Below are positions 1,102 through 59,861 of a stretch of DNA of 64,000 bases, piece after piece. The stretch comes from Thermoprotei archaeon (GTDB taxonomy: Archaea > Thermoproteota > Thermoprotei > Thermoproteales > B15-G16). The DNA is taken from the NCBI GenBank assembly GCA_003649205.1, contig QMRC01000004.1:1-64000 (forward strand). Reading direction: 5' to 3'. Numbering within the stretch: position 1 is the first letter of the stretch; every line of letters begins with the position of its first letter. The notes under the pieces were generated by a model that saw nothing but the letters and a program-made list of their open reading frames with translations, did not search any database and had not been told where the DNA came from. The position numbers were made by a program, and so were the translations under genes.

Positions 1102-1284
1102 CTACTCAGGTTTTATCTCTATGTCCTTCGGTACTAATCCTTCCTGCTTCATTCTGATGAATTGTTCGTAAAGTTTCTTCCTTATTACCTTGCTACCACA
1201 TCTATAGCAGTAGTACTTGCCTTCGATTAGTGCAAGGACATCTCTACTACCGCATATGCAACACTTGATCTCTTCTCCTGACAT
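1102..1284 (-). CDS. small zinc-ribbon protein
   Basis: The 60-residue form begins at ATG 1284. A longer in-frame GTG start at 1338 exists, but the likely TATA box (1312-1317) would then lie inside the coding sequence, so the shorter form is preferred. Two CxxC knuckles (CCICGS and CYRCGS), about 18 residues apart, suggest one bound zinc. A basic helix follows. It is probably a nucleic-acid-binding adaptor and forms a short operon with the downstream QueG-like gene. Function is not recognised. Confidence 0.65.
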   Translation of the reverse strand: MSGEEIKCCICGSRDVLALIEGKYYCYRCGSKVIRKKLYEQFIRMKQEGLVPKDIEIKPE

Positions 1285-1310
1285 ACCGTTTACTATCGTC
1301 ACTATGTGGG

Positions 1311-1320
1311 GTATATACTT
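1311..1320. promoter_or_regulatory. TATA box likely shared by divergent genes
   Basis: GTATATACTT lies about 30 bases upstream of the minus-strand ATG at 1284 and about 45 bases upstream of the plus-strand ATG at 1360. It is preceded by GGGG, matching the G/C tracts that abut several other TATA boxes in this window. Assignment rests on spacing and sequence only. Confidence 0.45.
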
Positions 1321-1359
1321 ATTCCTGATCTCGTCCACACATAATCTGGGGGGTTTGTC

Positions 1360-3149: not shown

Positions 3150-4061
3150 ATGAGCTACCTGTACTGTACAGAATGTGGTGGGAAAGTCATCAGAAACGAA
3201 AGTGGCGAGCTAGTGTGTACGCAGTGCGGATTAGTACACAACGAAATCATACTGCCAGAGTACGGTAGTGGAAAGAGGGTAGAGGTACCAAAGGAGTTTC
3301 AGATACCTGAAGTGCACAACCAGAACATACGTCAAGAGTACGCGCACTTAATGAAGATAGATAGGATCATAAGATCAACATCGAGTAGCTACCAAAGAGC
3401 ACTACAGTGCCTACTCAAGATAGGTGAGAAGCTAAACATACCTAGAGAAGTCATAGAATACGCCTACAACCTATACCTCAAAGCAGTTAGACACGACCTA
3501 CACAAGGAAAAAGACATAACACACTACAAAGTAGCACTAACCTGTCTACTCATAGCAATCAAGAAATTCATGAGAAATCCAGTTAGCATAAAGGAATGTC
3601 TAAGAGTATTCAGAGAAGAAGGACACAGGATAACCTTAGGTGACATCTCGAAAATAATTGTAGCACTAAGGAGGGTCCTCCAGCTAGAGACAGTAGTGCT
3701 AGACCTTAGACAGTACATCGTGAGAATAGTGAACGAACTGTACTCAAACCCATACATAGAGATGTACATACTGAAGAAGAGCAAGTACCTATATCCACAG
3801 TCACTGAGAGGAGCAATTCTGCAGGAAGCGCTCAAGATAAGTGAGAAGATTAGTCCAAGTATTAGAGCAGGTAAGAATCCACAGATCCTAGCTCTAGCAA
3901 TAGTATATGAAGCAGAGAGAAGAGTTAGGAGGAGATTTGGTATAACCAGGATCTATACACAGAATGAAATTGCTAGGAGATTTGGATACAGCGTTCACAC
4001 ACTTCGTGAGTACGTGAAGTTGATTAGGAGCTTACAGCAATTTCATGAGGTAAGTCCGTAA
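3150..4061 (+). CDS. tfb: transcription initiation factor B paralogue
   Basis: A 303-residue TFB. The N-terminal zinc ribbon (CTECGG at residue 6, CTQCGL at residue 24) is followed by a B-linker and two cyclin-like repeats (about 95-190 and 200-300), ending in a helix-turn-helix (NEIARRFGYSVHTLREY) of the BRE-reading type. TFB bridges TBP and RNA polymerase at promoters. The repeats look diverged, and many archaea carry several TFBs, so this may be a secondary one. The 3' end overlaps the convergent prepilin-like gene by 38 bases. Confidence 0.85.
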   Translation: MSYLYCTECGGKVIRNESGELVCTQCGLVHNEIILPEYGSGKRVEVPKEFQIPEVHNQNIRQEYAHLMKIDRIIRSTSSSYQRALQCLLKIGEKLNIPREVIEYAYNLYLKAVRHDLHKEKDITHYKVALTCLLIAIKKFMRNPVSIKECLRVFREEGHRITLGDISKIIVALRRVLQLETVVLDLRQYIVRIVNELYSNPYIEMYILKKSKYLYPQSLRGAILQEALKISEKISPSIRAGKNPQILALAIVYEAERRVRRRFGITRIYTQNEIARRFGYSVHTLREYVKLIRSLQQFHEVSP

Positions 4062-4938
4062 CATTCCAGTTAAAGTAAGCGACAACAGTAACTGGGACCT
4101 TAACCGTGATCTTCCTACTCAATACCTTGAAGTCCTTAACGAGGTACTTACCTTCGGGATCCTTAACATCGACTTTAAGCCCTATCTTACCGATGTACTT
4201 TGCGGTAGTCACATTGCCATTACTCGATATGCTGTAAAGACTTAATTTACCTCTAAACGAATACCTAATCCATAGATCTAGAGAGCTAGCTCTCTTCTTT
4301 AGCGTTGTACTCAGTGCTTTCCTAATGCATCTAGCTATGGCACGAGCTATGTCATCACTAAAGACTTCTGATGTGAAGTTAACCTCTCGTCGTATCTTGA
4401 GCTTGTGAAGGAATGATGTGTAGAGGTCAATAGCTTTAACTCTGTACATTAGGGTCACTGTGCTATCGATGTCTTTGGTGTAGCGGTAGAGTTTCTTACC
4501 GATCTTGAACCAAGCTCTGAAGACTAGGTTTGTGCATACGGTAGGTCTACCCTCTGGATCTAAGTTCACCACTACGTTGCTTTCTGTTAGTACGACTTCA
4601 ATACATAGGTTTGATTTTGTGAGTACAGTGTTGTACTTTTGGATGTAATTTAGTACTTCTCTCTTCACGTACTTAGCTAGGTCACTGAATTTCCACGTGG
4701 TATTAGTTAGGTAGTTCAGTAGTGCTTTATCGCACGCCACCATTGCATACACGTGAATTGCTCTACTTATTGACCTTTGGAGCGTAATTGTTTCAATTGC
4801 TCGTTTGTAGATTGTTGTTGCTGATATCAAACCAGTTATGACCTGTGTCGCTACTGAGGATGCGAGTAAGATAACGACTAAGTACAGTAGTGCTATGTAT
4901 GTGAAGACTTCCCCTCTACTTCTTGATGATCTGTACAT
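4024..4938 (-). CDS. prepilin-like surface protein
   Basis: The N-terminus has a class III (type IV prepilin) signal: basic residues, then SRG followed by EVFTYIALLYLVVILLASS. Cleavage would follow the Gly. The start at ATG 4938 is chosen over ATG 4959 because GAGGAGGGT precedes it and it shortens overlap with the upstream gene. The rest (about 270 residues) is beta-rich and extracellular, with cysteines. It is the last of three co-directional genes and belongs with the divergent ATPase. It may be a minor pilin or pseudopilin; no close family is recognised. Confidence 0.6.
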   Translation of the reverse strand: MYRSSRSRGEVFTYIALLYLVVILLASSVATQVITGLISATTIYKRAIETITLQRSISRAIHVYAMVACDKALLNYLTNTTWKFSDLAKYVKREVLNYIQKYNTVLTKSNLCIEVVLTESNVVVNLDPEGRPTVCTNLVFRAWFKIGKKLYRYTKDIDSTVTLMYRVKAIDLYTSFLHKLKIRREVNFTSEVFSDDIARAIARCIRKALSTTLKKRASSLDLWIRYSFRGKLSLYSISSNGNVTTAKYIGKIGLKVDVKDPEGKYLVKDFKVLSRKITVKVPVTVVAYFNWNVTDLPHEIAVSS

Positions 4939-5236
4939 AGAGTACTCTACCCTCCTCATCTAGGACAGGTACTAGAAGCGTAGCATTGCTACACACCTCT
5001 GTACTCACTAGTATTAGTGCGTGGTCTGTACTACTGACACTAATGAGCTGTGAAGTGCTGTAGTTACCTAGAACTACATCAACGACAACATCAGGTACGT
5101 ACTTACTAACTGCATGCGCTATGGCGCACTCATTAACTAGCTCCTCAACCTTGCTGCTTGGTATGTATAGGGGTAGGTACGTAGCTGGAATCAGTACGGT
5201 TATCAGCAAGAGAACCTCAAGTAGGTACCACCTCAC
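4916..5236 (-). CDS. small exported protein of the pilus-like locus
   Basis: A 106-residue protein with a hydrophobic N-terminal segment (LLEVLLLITVLIPATYLPLY) that could be a signal anchor or prepilin-like helix. A short domain outside the membrane contains two cysteines. Its start codon shares one base with the upstream stop at 5236, and its 3' end overlaps the next gene, indicating tight translational coupling. No family is recognised. Its role as a pseudopilin is inferred from position only. Confidence 0.5.
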   Translation of the reverse strand: MRWYLLEVLLLITVLIPATYLPLYIPSSKVEELVNECAIAHAVSKYVPDVVVDVVLGNYSTSQLISVSSTDHALILVSTEVCSNATLLVPVLDEEGRVLYVQIIKK

Positions 5237-5604
5237 TACTTCATCACCCCAAGAAACTTCTCCATGATTAGCACTAGGTGCTTCAGCACTGTTGTGAGTA
5301 GTGTTGTTACTACACTCATTAATGCTACTATCACCAGTGCGTAGGTCACTGTAATTGCTAAGTAGATGAGTGATCCCCTTCTAGATCTCCTGGATAGCCT
5401 TTTGAAGATGGTGTAGGAGGGTACTATCGTGAATCCACTATCTATTAGGTACTCATGTAGTGTAGCGTTGACTTCTCGGTACTTCTTTATCAGGATTACG
5501 AGATTTAGTATTGTTGTTAGAGTTGTGAACAGGATAATAGCTGCTAGGATGCAGGATACTAGTAACCATAGTACACTAGCTGTAGATTCCTCAAATAGCT
5601 TCAT
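5236..5604 (-). CDS. small two-span membrane protein of the pilus-like locus
   Basis: A 122-residue protein with hydrophobic segments at about 8-38 and 76-105 and a basic stretch (FKRLSRRSRRGS) between them. That suggests two membrane spans with a cytoplasmic loop. It is the first gene of the minus-strand trio and is divergent from the ATPase gene across a 98-base gap. It could be a small platform or anchoring subunit. No homologous family is recognised. Confidence 0.5.
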   Translation of the reverse strand: MKLFEESTASVLWLLVSCILAAIILFTTLTTILNLVILIKKYREVNATLHEYLIDSGFTIVPSYTIFKRLSRRSRRGSLIYLAITVTYALVIVALMSVVTTLLTTVLKHLVLIMEKFLGVMK

Positions 5605-5660
5605 GATGTTCGCTAGAGGTGCTTCAATTAGGAATTTAAGGAGTACTAGCCATGTTGATT

Positions 5661-5673
5661 ACCCCCTTATAAG
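5661..5673. promoter_or_regulatory. TATA box next to a C5 tract in a divergent gap
   Basis: ACCCCCTTATAAG sits in the 98-base gap between the minus-strand pilus-like trio and the plus-strand ATPase. CTTATAAG is self-complementary and lies 33 bases before the GTG at 5703, fitting a near-leaderless plus transcript. In the minus direction the box reads TTATAAGGGGGT, the same TATA plus G-tract arrangement seen at other promoters here. Confidence 0.5.
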
Positions 5674-5702
5674 TTATTGAGACTCAACACTTGGGTGCTT
5701 AG

Positions 5703-7460
5703 GTGCTTAAGCTAACTCCAGGTGCGTTAAAAGGTGGCTTAGCGAAGTTAGTGAAGGTATTGAGTAGCGAAGTTACTCGTGATGAAGCTCCGGTATGGGA
5801 GCAAATACTTCACTTAGTAGATGCTGTACAGCGATGTGTCTACACTACCTGCTTGTTCAGGTGTGAGAAGTGTCCGTTGACGTGTGATAGGTTCTTGATG
5901 ATTAGGGAGCATTTGAAGCTATACCCGTGCTCTGGTACGCTAATTCTCGATCCTAGAGCAGTGAGGGTTGAGGACATTACCTGTAGTAAGTTCCCAAAGA
6001 TTTGGCTTAATGAGATCAGGCACAGGTTAACTAAGCTACAGACAGCCTTCTCCTCTGTGGTGGTTCAGAGACAAGCTCTCGGTGATATGCATGTTCATGA
6101 GAGAGATACCGAGTTTATCTCTGGTTCCGAGACTTACAGGGTTAATATCTTCTTAGTTGTGGTGAGTAGAGAGAGGTTGAGTTATTGTGCTAAGCCATAT
6201 CTTCCAGTTTTCGTAATTAGACAGCTTGAGAAGCACTTAATTCCTGTGCTTCAGTCCATTATTGTGGAGAGGCCACAGTACTACACTGAACGTTTACTAA
6301 GGTATCGTAGGTTCATCTGTACGTACTTACTACTCACGAGAATCGATATGGATTTAGAGCAGGAGTTGATCAGTGACTTGAGTACTTATCTTGTGTTGAG
6401 ATCCTGTGGCCTTAAGTACTTAATACCGCCACTTCTCGATGCTAGAGTTGAGGATTTGTTTGCTAGGAGTTCAAGCAACTACGTCTACCTAGCGCACTCT
6501 ATAGGTGCTAATCTCGCGTATAGAGTGAGGAATGTGGTTTCAGAGCTACGAGCACTACTTAGGTTAGCTAAGTTGAAGGGTTTGGCATTAGATGAAGAGC
6601 GACCTTCAGGTAAGTGTGATATCAAGTTATTTAATCACAGCTTGAGGTTGGTCTTTGATACTCATCCCTATACGCCTAATACCATGTCGATTAACATTAG
6701 GAAGCTAGATAGGAGTTACTTCTCGCTGACGAGGCTAATTCAGTATGGTTGTCTAAGTGTTAAGGATGCGGCTTACCTACTAACTACGTTACTTCTCAAA
6801 CGTGAGAGCATTATGATTGTTGGTGAGGTTAGTACTGGAAAGACTACGCTGCTTAATGCTCTTGACCTAGCTCTACCACATAACTTGAGGAGGGTGTATA
6901 TTGAGGAAGCTGAAGAGACACCACGTGTACCGTATCTGAATCAGGTTAAGTACATTGTTGAGCCTTACGAGGTGAGTGCTAAGGCTAGGTATCTAGAGGT
7001 CATTAAGTTACTTCACAAGAGACCAGACATAGTGATCTTTGGTGAAGCTAAGGGATACCTACACTTCAAGGCCCTGTACCATGCTGTTATTACAGGTATA
7101 CGGTGTCTCGCTACAGCACATGCACCGTCAGTAAGTGCTCTCCTCATGAGATTGCTCAACATATACAAGATTCCTCCAGAAGTCATTACTCAGGTACCTG
7201 TAGTCGTAGTCATGTGTAGAGAGGGTACTGTACGGAAGGTCCGTGGTATCTATAGATTGATTCAGAAGGGTAGTGAGGTACTGCCTATAAACTACGATAT
7301 TGTACTTGAGTCTGAGGATAGTGAGTACCTGAAGTACATGGACTTAATAGCTACAGCACTTGAACACGCACTCATCAGGCATGTGTTGTCACCTACCTTA
7401 CTCTCATTCTACCTAGATGAGTTCTACAGGAGGTGTGGTCTCTATGAGGTACCTAGATAG
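5703..7460 (+). CDS. type II/IV secretion (GspE/VirB11-like) ATPase of the pilus-like locus
   Basis: A 585-residue protein. The C-terminal half has a Walker A GEVSTGKTTL near residue 377, an acidic EEAEETPR stretch, a Walker B-like PDIVIFGEAKG near residue 442 and an Ala/Gly-rich His motif (ATAHAPS), as in secretion and pilus assembly ATPases. The N-terminal part is unusual: a cysteine cluster around residues 45-62 (C-x4-C-x3-C-x2-C-x3-C) that could bind zinc or an iron-sulfur cluster. The two following small membrane proteins overlap it or each other. It probably powers assembly of the prepilin-like proteins encoded divergently. Confidence 0.75.
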   Translation: MLKLTPGALKGGLAKLVKVLSSEVTRDEAPVWEQILHLVDAVQRCVYTTCLFRCEKCPLTCDRFLMIREHLKLYPCSGTLILDPRAVRVEDITCSKFPKIWLNEIRHRLTKLQTAFSSVVVQRQALGDMHVHERDTEFISGSETYRVNIFLVVVSRERLSYCAKPYLPVFVIRQLEKHLIPVLQSIIVERPQYYTERLLRYRRFICTYLLLTRIDMDLEQELISDLSTYLVLRSCGLKYLIPPLLDARVEDLFARSSSNYVYLAHSIGANLAYRVRNVVSELRALLRLAKLKGLALDEERPSGKCDIKLFNHSLRLVFDTHPYTPNTMSINIRKLDRSYFSLTRLIQYGCLSVKDAAYLLTTLLLKRESIMIVGEVSTGKTTLLNALDLALPHNLRRVYIEEAEETPRVPYLNQVKYIVEPYEVSAKARYLEVIKLLHKRPDIVIFGEAKGYLHFKALYHAVITGIRCLATAHAPSVSALLMRLLNIYKIPPEVITQVPVVVVMCREGTVRKVRGIYRLIQKGSEVLPINYDIVLESEDSEYLKYMDLIATALEHALIRHVLSPTLLSFYLDEFYRRCGLYEVPR

Positions 7461-7845
7461 GTTGTGTAGGAAGTATGTTGATGAGGTACATCCTCCAAGG
7501 GTCTCACTTCAGCTACCTACAGGTACTACGTTACTTCGTGTTAAGAGGTTCCTAAAGGGTTGTAATGATCTTGGTATTGAGGCTAAGGTTTCTAGAGTTA
7601 TATCTGAGTCACGTATTAGAGCTAATGAATTGTTGCAGTTAGAAATTGCGTCGTCTGCCACAGAGAACTGGATTACTCTCATGCTGGGTTCTATAGCGAT
7701 GACTCCAGTCATCATTGTTGTCGTTGCTGTAGTTACGAAGTCCTCATACTTAGCTTTAGCTGCATGCCTAAGCGTCTGTGCTGTTGTCCCAATTCTCTTC
7801 TACAAGGTACGGAGAAAAGTTCGTGAGGTGATTAGTGTTGGGTAG
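7444..7845 (+). CDS. small membrane protein, possible half of a split platform protein
   Basis: The start is set at ATG 7444, preceded by GGAGGTG; earlier in-frame starts lie inside the ATPase gene. The 133-residue product has a soluble N-terminal part of about 80 residues and two hydrophobic segments near the C-terminus (about 82-103 and 106-122), then basic residues. It overlaps the ATPase by 17 bases and the next gene by 8. Pilus loci normally encode a large TadC/GspF-type membrane protein, and this gene with the next may supply that role in two parts. That is inference. Confidence 0.55.
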   Translation: MRYLDRLCRKYVDEVHPPRVSLQLPTGTTLLRVKRFLKGCNDLGIEAKVSRVISESRIRANELLQLEIASSATENWITLMLGSIAMTPVIIVVVAVVTKSSYLALAACLSVCAVVPILFYKVRRKVREVISVG

Positions 7846-8395
7846 TGAGGTGGATGAATTTTTCCTGAAGTACAGTGAGAAGTGTGAGAAGTTAGGACGA
7901 CCCATACAGGCTATGGCTGCTACTGATGCTCCAAGAGCATACCTCACTACGAAGAGGTATCTCCAGGGTACACTACGTCGTCGAGATTGCTCTACTACCT
8001 CGCTAATCGTGTTGAGTAGTGAGTTTAGTGATAGTCGAGGTCTTGAACTAGTTGAATTAGCAACCAAGTTTAGAGCTGATGCGTATCTAGTACTCCGCAA
8101 AGTGAGGTATGTTTTCTCATCCATGTCGATTAGGTTATCTCTTATAATGAAGTTATTTTCCCTAACGATGCCAGTGGTTTTGTCAGTATTCTGTGTCCTA
8201 CAATGTCGTGAGTATGAGTCAATGGTCTATCAGTTCCTCACTGCTATCTTAGTTCTTCAGTTGGTGACTTCTCTTCTCGATGTAAGGAGGAAAGGAGTGA
8301 ATGCTATCTTACAGGTGGTATCTTCCCTAATCTTTAAGCTACTGTACTCAATTGTTGTTTTAGTGCTGGTTGTTTCATTGGCTTCGAGCCTGTAG
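7838..8395 (+). CDS. small membrane protein, possible second half of a split platform protein
   Basis: GAGGTGAT at 7825-7832 points to TTG 7838 as the start (GTG 7835 is also possible). The 185-residue product has a soluble N-terminus of about 95 residues and hydrophobic spans around 105-125, 132-150 and 163-184. Its layout (soluble part then membrane pair) resembles the preceding gene and a TadC half-module, but no signature motif was found. It ends 8 bases before the stop of the convergent cysS. Confidence 0.5.
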   Translation: MGSEVDEFFLKYSEKCEKLGRPIQAMAATDAPRAYLTTKRYLQGTLRRRDCSTTSLIVLSSEFSDSRGLELVELATKFRADAYLVLRKVRYVFSSMSIRLSLIMKLFSLTMPVVLSVFCVLQCREYESMVYQFLTAILVLQLVTSLLDVRRKGVNAILQVVSSLIFKLLYSIVVLVLVVSLASSL

Positions 8396-36954: not shown

Positions 36955-37275
36955 GAAAACACAAACAAACTCAAAACCTCCTCAACAACACACTCAATCC
37001 ACTACCAACTCCCCCTTCCCAAAAGACAACACATAGATAGATACCCCAACTACGTAGAGTATAGTGAACACGATAACCTACATAGAGCTACCACACACAT
37101 AACACATGTATAGAGAAGCGACGAAACAATAGAACTGTACACTGTATACACGTTAAACACCTCAAACCACAGTTCAAGACAGGCTGCAATGTAGAGTATA
37201 CGTAGTTAAATAATTTGAACTAATCAAATGTATATAAACCATTCACTCAATATAAAGACCACAGAGGTTGGGAAT
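36955..37275 (+). promoter_or_regulatory. intergenic region with pilin promoter
   Basis: The gap after ecfT is A/C rich with short direct motifs (ACACACATAACACATG) and no gene. Near its end TATATAAA (about 37231-37238) is followed by a leader and GAGGTTGGG just before the pilin ATG at 37276, so this is the promoter of the 10-kb pilus operon. No operator or origin-like repeats were identified. Confidence 0.55.
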
Positions 37276-47417: not shown

Positions 47418-48830
47418 CTACTCAATGAAGGGTTCTAATTTCGCTGGTACATACTTTATCAATGGTATTAGATCTCTTGGTATTGGCTTGTAACCCCATA
47501 GATCTAGTGCTTCCTTGAGTTCAGGTACCTGCTTAGCGTACTCCCTCAAGTCTATACCCTTTAGTATAGCCTCTAGTGCTGCTCTAGCGGCTACTGCACC
47601 TGCTCTCGTACCTCTTGGATGACCGTGAATTCCACCACCCATATTACACACTACGTCAGGTCCTAGCAGTAGTACGTTCCAGTGCAGATTACCTGGGTGT
47701 ATCCCACCTGATGCTACTGGCATGGTGCTCTTCAGGTGTAACCAAGGCTTTGTTAATGATAGGTTTATTCTCTGGATCTCGGTTATGACACCGTGCATCT
47801 TACCTGCTGCAGTGCCTGTATGTAGTTGGTCACCACCTGCTAACCTAACTAACTTAGCTATTACCATCATTGTTATTCCATGTTTTGGATTTCTCGTAAA
47901 TGCTGCGTGCCCTGCTCTATGACAGTGTATTACTACCTTTCCTCTAACTGATGGGTCTTCAGCTACCATTCTGAGCGTGTCTAGTCCAGCCCATATGAAG
48001 TCAATCATTATGCAGTTAGCTCCGTGCTGAATTGCCCTATCAGCTAGCTCAAGTATCTTGTCAGGTCTAGCTGTTACATTTATTGCATAGAGTACTCTCC
48101 TTCCTGTTTCCGACTTCACTCTATCAAGTGCCTCAGCTGCTAATGAAGCTCTCTCCTCAATTCTACTGTATGGTGGATTTACAAGTAGCTCATCGTCCTT
48201 CACGAAGTCAACTCCACCAATAGCTGCATTGTACACCACATCTATATGTTCCTTAGCTGGTAAGCCGTAGTCAGGTTTCACGATGGTACCTAAGTGTGGT
48301 CTCCTGCTCTTCTCAGTACCTACGAACTTCCTAACACCTTCAACACCAAATGCCGGTCCCTTGAACGACTTGACAAATTCCTTAGGTAAGTACACATCGA
48401 GTAGCCTTACGTTTGCTAGATCACCTATGCCGAAGAGATTTCCAGCTATGTGGACCATTAGCTGTGTTAGACCGAGGGTGTCTGGATCAAACGTATCTAC
48501 AGGCCAAGCTATGTCAACAATCCCTGCATTGAGGTCAGGTATCTTGAGTACGGTTATTACTTTAGCTGCGTACTTCTTTCTGACTTCAGGGGTTTCCTTC
48601 TCAACAGGTGTCCAAGTGCCTGTACTCTGCTCAGCCGCTATGTGCTCAGCTGCTAGGTCGAGAGCTATACCCTCTTTCGGCTCTACGTAGTACCTAGCAA
48701 TTACGTACTTATCTGGATCAACGAGTATTGTGCTTTCCCAAGTTTCTCTAAGTCTCATTTCATCGGTAAAGTACATCCACATTGCATGTTGGTCAAAGTG
48801 CTCGATTACTCCCTTCTTAGTGATGGTCAT
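47418..48830 (-). CDS. rbcL: form III RuBisCO large subunit
   Basis: A 470-residue protein with RuBisCO motifs: GTIVKP (Lys185), GGVDFVKDDE with the carbamylated Lys211, HRAGHAAF, loop 6 GTAAGKMHG, SGGIHPG and GGGIHGHPRG. In archaea form III fixes CO2 onto ribulose-1,5-bisphosphate derived from nucleotides. The residue two after Lys185 is Asp (KPDYG) where plant and form II enzymes have Lys. It lies 55 bases downstream of R15P isomerase, its pathway neighbour. GAGGGTC precedes the ATG. Confidence 0.93.
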   Translation of the reverse strand: MTITKKGVIEHFDQHAMWMYFTDEMRLRETWESTILVDPDKYVIARYYVEPKEGIALDLAAEHIAAEQSTGTWTPVEKETPEVRKKYAAKVITVLKIPDLNAGIVDIAWPVDTFDPDTLGLTQLMVHIAGNLFGIGDLANVRLLDVYLPKEFVKSFKGPAFGVEGVRKFVGTEKSRRPHLGTIVKPDYGLPAKEHIDVVYNAAIGGVDFVKDDELLVNPPYSRIEERASLAAEALDRVKSETGRRVLYAINVTARPDKILELADRAIQHGANCIMIDFIWAGLDTLRMVAEDPSVRGKVVIHCHRAGHAAFTRNPKHGITMMVIAKLVRLAGGDQLHTGTAAGKMHGVITEIQRINLSLTKPWLHLKSTMPVASGGIHPGNLHWNVLLLGPDVVCNMGGGIHGHPRGTRAGAVAARAALEAILKGIDLREYAKQVPELKEALDLWGYKPIPRDLIPLIKYVPAKLEPFIE

Positions 48831-58284: not shown

Positions 58285-59169
58285 TCAAGGTATTAGGTGT
58301 GAGCCATCGCAGGTAGGTGCTTTGAAGTAGGTTTCTGATGTTAGTCCCTCTCTACACACAGCATAGGTAATTCCTCTGGCGCTAGCTACCTCAACTACAG
58401 GTTTTAGGAGTTTCTTCCTTAATTCAGGACTTAGGTACCAGTAACCGTGTATCCAGGAACCTCCCTCTACGTATAGTCTCTTCCATCTCTGTGCTAGGTC
58501 TGGGTATGCTTGACACATTCTAGCTAGGTTATCTGGTTTTGCCTTGTAGGTTGAGGTTACTACGTGTCTTGCACCTAGGTCAATTACTGTCTTCACTAAT
58601 TCACGTAGTTCATCTGGTTCATCGTTTAGGTACGGTATTATTGGATCTATCCTAACACCTACCGGTATACCTCGTTTCGCTAATTCCTCAATAGCATGTA
58701 GTCTCTCTCCTGGTGATGGCGCTCCTGGCTCTAGTACTCTAGCTAGGTTACTATCTAGTGTTGTCACGGTTATCATGACTGCCACTCTACCTCTAGCTAT
58801 TACCTCGAGATCTCTCGTGACTAAGCTACTCTTCGTCGTTATCAGTACCCTACACCCTGCATTGATCAGCATCCTAAGTACCTCTCTCGTTAATTTGTAT
58901 TCAAGTTCTTCAGGTGGGTAGGGATCGCTACTTGTTGAGAGATTTATGTGGTACTTCTTGTCTATGTACTTTAGGTCGTGTAGTAGGTTTCTCAGTAAGT
59001 TCTTCTTTGGTGTGCTTCTACCTCTCCCAATGTATGAGGTTGCGTAGCAGTATAGGCATTGGTGACTACAGCGTGTGTAGGGTTGTAGACTGTACTTAGG
59101 TGGGCAGGTACATAGTGGACTCTTCCATGGATCAAATACTCTAATAACTCTTAGATCTCTTGTCTTCAC
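58285..59169 (-). CDS. SPL-family radical SAM protein
   Basis: A 294-residue protein with the radical SAM motif CSHQCLYCYA near residue 34, preceded by CTCPPKYSLQPYTR, then SSSDPYPPEE and TTKSSLVTRDLEV, the pattern of spore-photoproduct-lyase-like (Rv2578c-type) proteins. The reaction is unknown; DNA repair or modification is often suggested for relatives. ATG 59169 overlaps the nucleotidyltransferase stop by four bases, so the two are co-translated although the functional link is unclear. Confidence 0.82.
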   Translation of the reverse strand: MKTRDLRVIRVFDPWKSPLCTCPPKYSLQPYTRCSHQCLYCYATSYIGRGRSTPKKNLLRNLLHDLKYIDKKYHINLSTSSDPYPPEELEYKLTREVLRMLINAGCRVLITTKSSLVTRDLEVIARGRVAVMITVTTLDSNLARVLEPGAPSPGERLHAIEELAKRGIPVGVRIDPIIPYLNDEPDELRELVKTVIDLGARHVVTSTYKAKPDNLARMCQAYPDLAQRWKRLYVEGGSWIHGYWYLSPELRKKLLKPVVEVASARGITYAVCREGLTSETYFKAPTCDGSHLIP

Positions 59170-59861
59170 TTCCTCATGGACCTAAGTAGCTTCTCAGCTT
59201 CCTCTATGTCCTTAACCGTATCTATTGACTTCCACATGACGTTCCTGTACTTAACTGCTTTGAGTTTCTTCTCCTCAGCTAGCTTTGGGAATGCAGTTAC
59301 CTCTATATCGCCTCTAGCTGGTAGATACTCGAAGATCTCTGGCTTGAAGCAGTAGACACCAGCATTTATCCAGTAGTTCACTAGCTCTGGCTTCTCTCTG
59401 AATTTAATTATGAATCCCGCTTCATCTATGTCCAGTATACCGTATGGAGATCTAAGAGGTACTGCTGCTATAGCTCCTATAGCATCACTTTCCTTTATTG
59501 CTTCGACCAATAGTCTTGGATCGAGGTTTGTGATGATATCTCCGTTAAGTACTAGGAATGAATCTTCATTCTTCAGTAGGTGTTCTGCGTTCTTAAGTGC
59601 ACCACCTGTACCTAGAGGCTCTGGCTCAACTACGTAAGCTACCTTTATACCGTACTTCTCACCATTACCAATTTCCTCAATTATCTTCTCCTTAAGGTAC
59701 CCAACGCATAGTATTATACAGTTAATACCATAGCTCTTCAACCACTCAAACTGATGTACTAGAATGGGCTTACCACTTATTGGGATTAGTGGTTTTGGTC
59801 TCTCAAGGGTTAGAGGTCTCAATCTCTTTCCATAACCACCACAGAGTACAACAGCTTTCAT
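59166..59861 (-). CDS. NDP-sugar pyrophosphorylase (nucleotidyltransferase)
   Basis: The start ATG 59861 follows GAGGTGATCC, a perfect match to the archaeal anti-Shine-Dalgarno. The 231-residue enzyme has the signature CGGYGKRLRPLTLERPKPLI at residues about 6-25, LVLNGDIIT, and EPLGTGGALKNAE. It makes NDP-sugars such as GDP-mannose or dTDP/UDP-glucose from sugar-1-phosphate; specificity cannot be read. It may feed surface glycosylation together with the UDP-sugar dehydrogenase at 12.4 kb. Confidence 0.88.
   Translation of the reverse strand: MKAVVLCGGYGKRLRPLTLERPKPLIPISGKPILVHQFEWLKSYGINCIILCVGYLKEKIIEEIGNGEKYGIKVAYVVEPEPLGTGGALKNAEHLLKNEDSFLVLNGDIITNLDPRLLVEAIKESDAIGAIAAVPLRSPYGILDIDEAGFIIKFREKPELVNYWINAGVYCFKPEIFEYLPARGDIEVTAFPKLAEEKKLKAVKYRNVMWKSIDTVKDIEEAEKLLRSMRK

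Follow-up and report, generated by a model that had tools for sequence, protein, structure and literature searches.

A 64,000-nt stretch of the genome of a Thermoprotei archaeon (GCA_003649205.1, contig QMRC01000004.1, positions 1 to 64,000; hereafter the window) carries a gene for a TFIIB-like transcription factor (TFB) immediately followed by six genes, P1–P6 (4024–8395), that appear to encode a divergent pilus-type machine. Our favored interpretation, to which we give a probability of about 0.55, is that these genes are a partly dismantled early branch of an ancient type of locus, whose own TFB paralogue would control a type IV pilus (T4P)-like machine aiding DNA uptake or exchange. The six genes had been singled out in an original prediction, made from the window sequence alone, as a minimal and divergent pilus-like machine whose platform is split over two genes. 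All six open reading frames (ORFs) are intact, and the description was borne out by T2SSF domains in orthologues of both small membrane proteins and by long single-gene forms in five related loci. The TFB gene was absent from the predicted set.

A conserved locus of TFB, ATPase, platform and pilin

The window derives from contig C4 of a 2.07-Mb, 31-contig genome that is the sole member of its family among the 81 genomes of its class searched. Its same-order relatives fit what we take to be Thermoproteales, and the labels Vulcanisaeta-, Pyrobaculum-, Thermoproteus-, Thermofilaceae-, Sulfolobaceae- and Desulfurococcales-type used below are likewise our assumption, fitting gene content. P4 (5703–7460, plus strand; 585 aa, intact Walker A) is a divergent pilus-assembly ATPase of the T2SSE/TadA type, belonging to the type II/IV secretion ATPases (Pfam T2SSE, 6.8e-16), and is the only one of P1–P6 recognised by Pfam and NCBIfam. 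The TFB (3150–4061, plus strand; 303 aa) has a zinc ribbon and cyclin-type repeats (Pfam Zn_Ribbon_TF, 3.3e-6; TFIIB repeat, 3.7e-4). Family profiles built without the window sequences were run on the 76 window ORFs, and the top matches were P4 for the ATPase family (3.2e-87) and the gene at 3150–4061 for the TFB family (9.1e-54).

Outside the order, the full locus comprises TgtA, Lsm, RpoG, TFB, three or four opposite-strand genes that mostly encode an N-terminal transmembrane (TM) segment, two small coiled-coil proteins, the ATPase, two membrane proteins, a pilin of about 80 aa and a HerA-type ATPase with two N-terminal TM segments. A frequent order is TgtA-Lsm-RpoG-TFB-(pilin-like genes)-ATPase-platform A-platform B-small pilin-CedD, and annotation of 30 loci from the phylum Thermoproteota recovered TFB, platform, pilin, CedD, adenylate-kinase-like and thermosome genes in order. 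The distance between TFB and ATPase was at most 7 kb in 70 of the 80 related loci from Thermoproteota and Asgard archaea (class, 17/19; Pyrobaculum/Thermoproteus-type, 7/7; phylum, 27/30; Asgard, 3/4 and 16/20); the misses were L035, L036, L141, L148, L163, L276, L324, L325, L332 and L333, some of them on short contigs. The window locus is without the RpoG/TgtA context and is flanked instead by CysS and a radical SAM gene. The conserved core is TFB, ATPase, platform and pilin, with CedD in some lineages. The gene-set check that accompanied the original prediction came out divided: this core is co-conserved and includes the TFB that had been missed, but the six-gene set as a unit was rejected, P2 and P3 being undetectable by sequence outside the window.

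The ATPase profile matched 70 of 398 Thermoproteota genomes at E≤5.5e-87, after which scores showed a gap down to 1e-60; at 1e-60 and weaker, short Pyrobaculum/Thermoproteus-type orthologues were intermixed with true paralogues. Of 119 Asgard-phylum genomes, 106 had a match at E≤1e-40; the strongest 102 reached E≤1.1e-67, with no further score before 1.1e-55. In both sets the E-value gap sets ATPase orthologues apart from paralogues. No Sulfolobaceae-type genome among the 398 had an orthologue-level match (best in family f32, about 1e-40). A scan of named genomes placed Asgard archaea among the matches listed (Heimdallarchaeota, Borrarchaeum and Sifarchaeum), the absence of Thermoproteota among those listed carrying no meaning, and three of the four Asgard loci taken from them contained the ATPase, two platform genes and TFB. 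In two of 20 further Asgard loci, L328 and L329, the genes for TgtA, Lsm, TFB, ATPase, platform and pilin follow one another as in Thermoproteota, and L328 has RpoG besides.

All trees were made with a quick search. Window P4 was sister to the same-order families f2 and f3 (Shimodaira–Hasegawa-like approximate likelihood ratio test [SH-aLRT] 93), which are presumably Pyrobaculum/Thermoproteus/Vulcanisaeta-type, and 30 orthologues, the window included, were split from five paralogues with a support of 92. The window ATPase is probably the basal, first branch of subclade 4D of the 2016 census of archaeal pilus systems (Makarova 2016). In the TFB tree, from whose input 21 of 77 rows had been removed as near-duplicates or fragments, 34 locus TFBs (the window TFB and 33 others) fell on one side of a branch with an SH-aLRT of 99; with three Asgard rows added, the 37 rows had a support of 79 and the Asgard rows were nested inside. 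We predict that the window TFB is a dedicated regulator of the locus.

Further TFIIB-type genes were observed beside these. A 78-aa protein with a TFIIB/Rrn7-type zinc ribbon (5e-5) is encoded at 1102–1338 (minus strand), about 1.8 kb upstream of the locus TFB. Contig C3 of the window genome carries two TFB copies of equal score (58824–59747 and 231682–232605), reflecting either duplication or an assembly artefact, and the Borrarchaeum genomes G406 and G407 have 11 and 12 TFB-family matches, a large TFIIB paralogue set.

CedD and the chromosomal place of tfb3

CedD is a DNA-import ATPase of Sulfolobales, described in the relevant sections of PMC11868833 as essential for DNA import and induced by DNA damage. 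The HerA gene of the related loci had CedD as its best NCBIfam match (1.5e-73, 3.5e-71, 4.7e-61 over nearly the full length, 3.3e-70, 2.9e-39 and 2.6e-43); all of these proteins scored below the CedD equivalog cut-off of 600 bits, yet far ahead of CedB and HerA, with CedB compared via family scores only. CedD exceeded the cut-off in 7/7 Sulfolobaceae-type genomes tested, and Sulfolobus acidocaldarius was the named control exceeding it. Sulfolobaceae-type loci showed PAC2, TgtA, Lsm, RpoG, a TFB of 166–200 aa, thermosome and CedD genes clustered together (TFB profile matches in 6/7, RpoG in 5/7), and in four Desulfurococcales-type loci CedD was separated from Lsm or RpoG by a single gene encoding 107–118 aa. 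Therefore, tfb3 and cedD sit at the place where the full locus lies elsewhere.

CedD is absent from the window locus itself. At another place, the genome encodes a CedD-like ATPase of 430 aa that has two N-terminal TM segments and, immediately after it, a coiled-coil protein belonging to the locus family (5.4e-8).

A second conserved Thermoproteales neighbourhood (L107:5532–10802; G000:C5) contained genes for a small protein, a helicase-like ATPase and a CedD-like membrane HerA in all nine loci compared, and its copy in the window genome (G000:C5) adds a coiled-coil protein. This neighbourhood is possibly a displaced part of the DNA-exchange machinery. CedD-like matches outside the locus in Thermofilaceae-type genomes (L098–L104) had no TFB or ATPase neighbours and were left aside.

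The split platform

P5 (7417–7845, plus strand; 142 aa) and P6 (7835–8395, plus strand; 186 aa) have two and three predicted TM segments. We assign P5 as the putative N-terminal half of a split TadC-like platform (platform A) and P6, on position and TM topology, as the presumed C-terminal half (platform B). A T2SSF (GspF/TadC) domain was detected in 4/24 members of the platform A family (best 1.7e-5) and likewise in 4/24 of the platform B family (best 3.1e-5), and the Pfam T2SSF cut-off was passed by platform A of G175 and platform B of G147. Because the domain is present in orthologues of both halves, the split platform is supported. In five loci (L147, L148, L160, L161 and L164), a single ORF of 363–469 aa with 6–8 predicted TM segments replaces the two genes, and a weak profile comparison aligned the P5 and P6 families to the first and second parts of these long forms, in that order. 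Among the window ORFs, the best match of the platform A profile was the TadC of the 37-kb locus (3e-5), with P5 next (0.0017, a weak match). The AlphaFold2 models of P5 and P6 were helical and of medium confidence (predicted local distance difference test 79 for P5 and 79.5 for P6; predicted template modelling score 0.48–0.49). In all, the sequence comparisons give good support for a two-gene platform in the family and weak support in the case of P5; P6 is assigned to it on position alone.

A TadC platform in two genes, encoding 294 and 314 aa, was also observed in another pilus locus of the window genome (L061:11498–13323; G000:C18), and two TadC-like genes are reported for clade 4B in the account of that clade by Makarova 2016 (PMC4858521); the split platform is therefore not unique to the window locus.

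Prepilin-like proteins and the locus pilin family

The original prediction had described three prepilin-like or membrane proteins facing the ATPase, and this arrangement was confirmed. P1 (4024–4959, minus strand; 311 aa) is prepilin-like, with an archaeal class III signal motif (RG|EV...) and an N-terminal TM segment; the motif occurred in three of the 76 window ORFs, namely P1 and the two prepilins of the standard locus at 37228 and 43381. P2 (4916–5236, minus strand; 106 aa) has one predicted N-terminal TM segment and P3 (5236–5604, minus strand; 122 aa) has two; both may be minor-pilin-like, a role suggested by position alone for P2 and by position for P3. The class III motif was not found in either. 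P2 was unmatched by its profile, and P3 gave a weak match (0.2, second among the window ORFs). The position of P1 corresponds to that of proteins of about 280–315 aa in loci L037 and L038, and the profile detected no sequence similarity between P1 and its relatives. The two blocks diverge from a 98-bp intergenic region (5605–5702) between the pilin-like block and the ATPase operon, presumably a shared promoter, and overlaps within the blocks are operon-like (P1/P2, 44 bp; P4/P5, 44 bp; P5/P6, 11 bp).

The locus pilin of the relatives is about 80 aa long with a single TM segment and the pattern K/R-K/R-G/A-S-P-L-x-E-E-G, which is type IV pilin-like with Glu at +5; we take this Glu +5 after G/A to resemble Flp, a pattern-based likening. 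A 95-aa pilin of this family is encoded elsewhere in the window genome (G000:C7; 6.9e-15). The family occurred in 45/81 genomes of the class and 14/30 genera, and the ATPase was present in all 14 pilin-holding genera (11 by profile, g3 and g5 by locus structure, g7 separately checked). The 15 genera with neither gene were set by E-values only, which overlap paralogues in the window's order (g2 best 4.2e-56), and g24 was outside the ATPase scan. On these grounds, and because it is uncorrected for kinship, the corresponding Fisher p of 1.3e-8 (14/0 vs 0/15 genera) was not relied on.

Two Vulcanisaeta-type loci (L339:1457–1693 and L340:1629–1859) were also observed to carry the locus pilin about 4 kb from a CedD-like gene; the start of a gene near this pilin resembles what we take to be CTP synthase.

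These pilins bear on a suggestion made for subclade 4D, the most unusual of the 2016 census, which the passages on it (Makarova, Koonin, Albers 2016, PMC4858521) describe as an ATPase plus one protein of 4–5 TM segments, a possible TadC derivative, with a TFIIB homologue, RPB8 beside it and never pilins or secreted proteins, perhaps no longer a pilus. Extended to our locus, the machine would no longer make a pilus and would serve a transcription-related pathway, in line with the TFB and RpoG linkage and with the lack of pilins in the loci treated in those passages. We regard this as very improbable, since the full loci of relatives contain pilin-like genes with an N-terminal TM segment (57/73 opposite-strand genes in 23 loci, with some RpoG and PAC2 genes counted in) together with the Flp-like pilin, window P1 carries a prepilin signal, and Pyrobaculum/Thermoproteus-type genomes, too, encode the locus pilin family at other places.

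Weighing the DNA-exchange reading

Several observations weigh against a T4P-like machine for DNA exchange. The machine is known from genes alone in every organism considered. Only 22 of the 80 loci, and only one of the 24 Asgard loci, have CedD at a distance of 7 kb or less from the ATPase; the Asgard match is weak (L330; NCBIfam 3.3e-15). The CedD-like protein of the window genome scores 95 bits against the cut-off of 600. TFB3 grouped with canonical TFBs in the TFB tree; a single clade of TFB3 and the locus TFBs was not rejected by the approximately unbiased test (p-AU 0.297), and TFB3 as a sequence orthologue of the locus TFB was not shown. The Pyrobaculum/Thermoproteus-type relatives have no pilin genes at the locus. 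The profile searches proposed along with the original prediction recovered P4, and P5 weakly, but not convincingly P6, P2 or P3; the roles of these three are putative assignments by position only. Foldseek with the P5 and P6 models, which are of medium confidence, returned no match at E≤0.001, and a VIA comparison of the P6 model with six chains gave only Z 2.2–3.8 to unrelated helical proteins; these fold comparisons listed no GspF-family chain, from which no exclusion follows.

The two structure comparisons, together with the failure of the platform B profile to match P6 among the window ORFs, are what would be expected if P5 and P6 were unrelated small membrane proteins and no platform existed. 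The negative comparison of the platform A and B profiles with each other points the same way; all such comparisons, those of the two families with a two-sequence TadC alignment and with the long forms included, were weak or negative (probability ≤28%). We nevertheless consider this improbable, as P5 follows directly after a genuine TadC in the profile ranking, T2SSF and the long single-ORF forms connect both families to such platforms, and position and order are kept.

Function is the weakest link of the DNA-exchange reading, and adhesion alone is its main rival. The locus would then encode an ordinary if divergent adhesion pilus or surface pilus that has a TFB of its own as switch, the adjacency of CedD in some lineages being due only to an old housekeeping neighbourhood of RpoG, Lsm, TgtA and thermosome genes. 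The scarcity of CedD near the ATPase and its absence from nearly all Asgard loci agree with this, as do the TFIIB homologues that the census reports, in its treatment of T4P loci, for many archaeal examples (Makarova 2016, PMC4858521). We nonetheless judge adhesion alone unlikely, if a serious contender, because in many unrelated families the gene next after the pilin is CedD, the CedD-like protein of the window genome adjoins a coiled-coil protein that is itself a locus component, and TFB3 and CedD were kept together at this place in Sulfolobales.

The cysteine cluster of the ATPase

The five closely spaced cysteines noted at the ATPase N-terminus are present, at residues 45, 50, 54, 57 and 61 (5835–5885, plus strand). 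The C-x2-C motif and one further Cys column were conserved in 13/13 long ATPases of the same order, and a fourth column in 9/13, the window not among the nine. The redox- or metal-linked secretion system proposed on this basis, in which the cluster would sense or use a metal, finds its support in that conservation. The proposal is otherwise unsupported: the short Pyrobaculum/Thermoproteus-type (f3) ATPases had four N-terminal Cys in 4/7 and none in 3/7, the motif was absent or otherwise arranged in most other lineages, and no redox gene formed part of the conserved locus in the annotated Thermoproteota and Asgard loci. The motif is an order-level feature lost in some members. Nothing points to a redox function; the P4 N-terminus may hold a small metal site or a disulfide, and we hold a metal-linked system to be the most improbable of the readings considered. 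A Cys-rich N-terminal domain had already been reported for Pyrobaculum/Thermoproteus relatives in the census section on these ATPases (Makarova 2016, PMC4858521).

Comparison with known systems

Like subclade 4D as portrayed in the census passages, the window locus has a divergent ATPase with a Cys-rich N-terminus and a TFIIB homologue. It differs in that subclade 4D is two-component and pilin-less, whereas the window has prepilin P1 with two membrane neighbours, divides its platform between two genes and encodes a full-length ATPase; a further difference from those descriptions is that in relatives outside the order the locus also includes a pilin, coiled-coil proteins and CedD, and that the lineage reaches Asgard archaea. 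With T4P-like systems in general the window shares the T2SSE ATPase (P4) and class III prepilins (P1 and the locus-family pilin at G000:C7). The Ced/TFB3 system shares a CedD-family HerA motor and a TFB at the same chromosomal place, by RpoG, TgtA, Lsm and thermosome genes, as in the locus relatives, but Ced is VirB4/VirB6/VirB2-like and the window locus T4P-like. The Ups pili of Sulfolobales are of T4P type, serve DNA exchange and are co-regulated by TFB3, according to the sections concerned of PMC9905601 and PMC11868833, whereas their ATPase differs from that of the window; the Ced, Ups and HerA operons are co-regulated by TFB3 in the same account (PMC9905601). Bacterial Tad/Flp pili resemble the locus in a TadA-type ATPase, a platform in two genes and a short pilin with Glu at +5, in contrast to which the locus has an archaeal gene set, a TFB regulator and CedD, and its Flp likeness is pattern-based. 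The combination was not found described in the open-access literature searched. In that literature arCOG05557–05559 were found only in Makarova 2016, and the passages of the 2019 dark-matter paper (PMC6393860) that concern such loci do not describe the combination.

The standard pilus locus of the window

The original prediction had contrasted P1–P6 with a standard locus at 37–47 kb, and the contrast is real: that locus encodes an ATPase, a TadC of 595 aa in which two T2SSF domains were detected, and the two prepilins at 37228 and 43381. A RuBisCO large-chain family protein (47418–48830, minus strand; Pfam 4.8e-74) adjoins it in this Thermoproteota genome.

Proposed mechanism and implications

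If the locus serves DNA exchange, TFB would recruit RNA polymerase to it in response to some specific condition; as with TFB3, DNA damage is a plausible one. After processing, P1–P3 and the unlinked pilin would be built into a pilus by P4 on the P5/P6 platform, this pilus would bring cells or DNA to the membrane, and a CedD-like HerA motor would pump DNA across it. Sulfolobales would have kept tfb3 and cedD at this place and lost the pilus, and Thermoproteales would have kept TFB, ATPase and platform at the locus while the rest moved or was replaced.

More tentatively, and at somewhat less than even odds, the Thermoproteota-Asgard ancestor may have possessed one DNA-exchange machine in which a regulator of TFIIB type was combined with a Flp-like type IV pilus built on a split platform and with a CedD/HerA pump; of this machine most Asgard archaea would keep at least the pilus and regulator, and the TFB3-Ced response and the pilin-less 4D loci would be two remnants. 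For the locus called most unusual by the 2016 census, this offers an explanation: its pilins can be encoded elsewhere, and a fuller ancestral locus would account for its TFB. On this reading, the DNA-damage response that involves TFB3 and CedD in Sulfolobales would be tied to a pilus machine found at the corresponding chromosomal position, and a DNA-exchange pilus is predicted for Asgard archaea, the relatives of eukaryotes, where the ATPase reaches orthologue level in 102 of the 119 genomes. The locus may thus be an overlooked DNA-exchange device.

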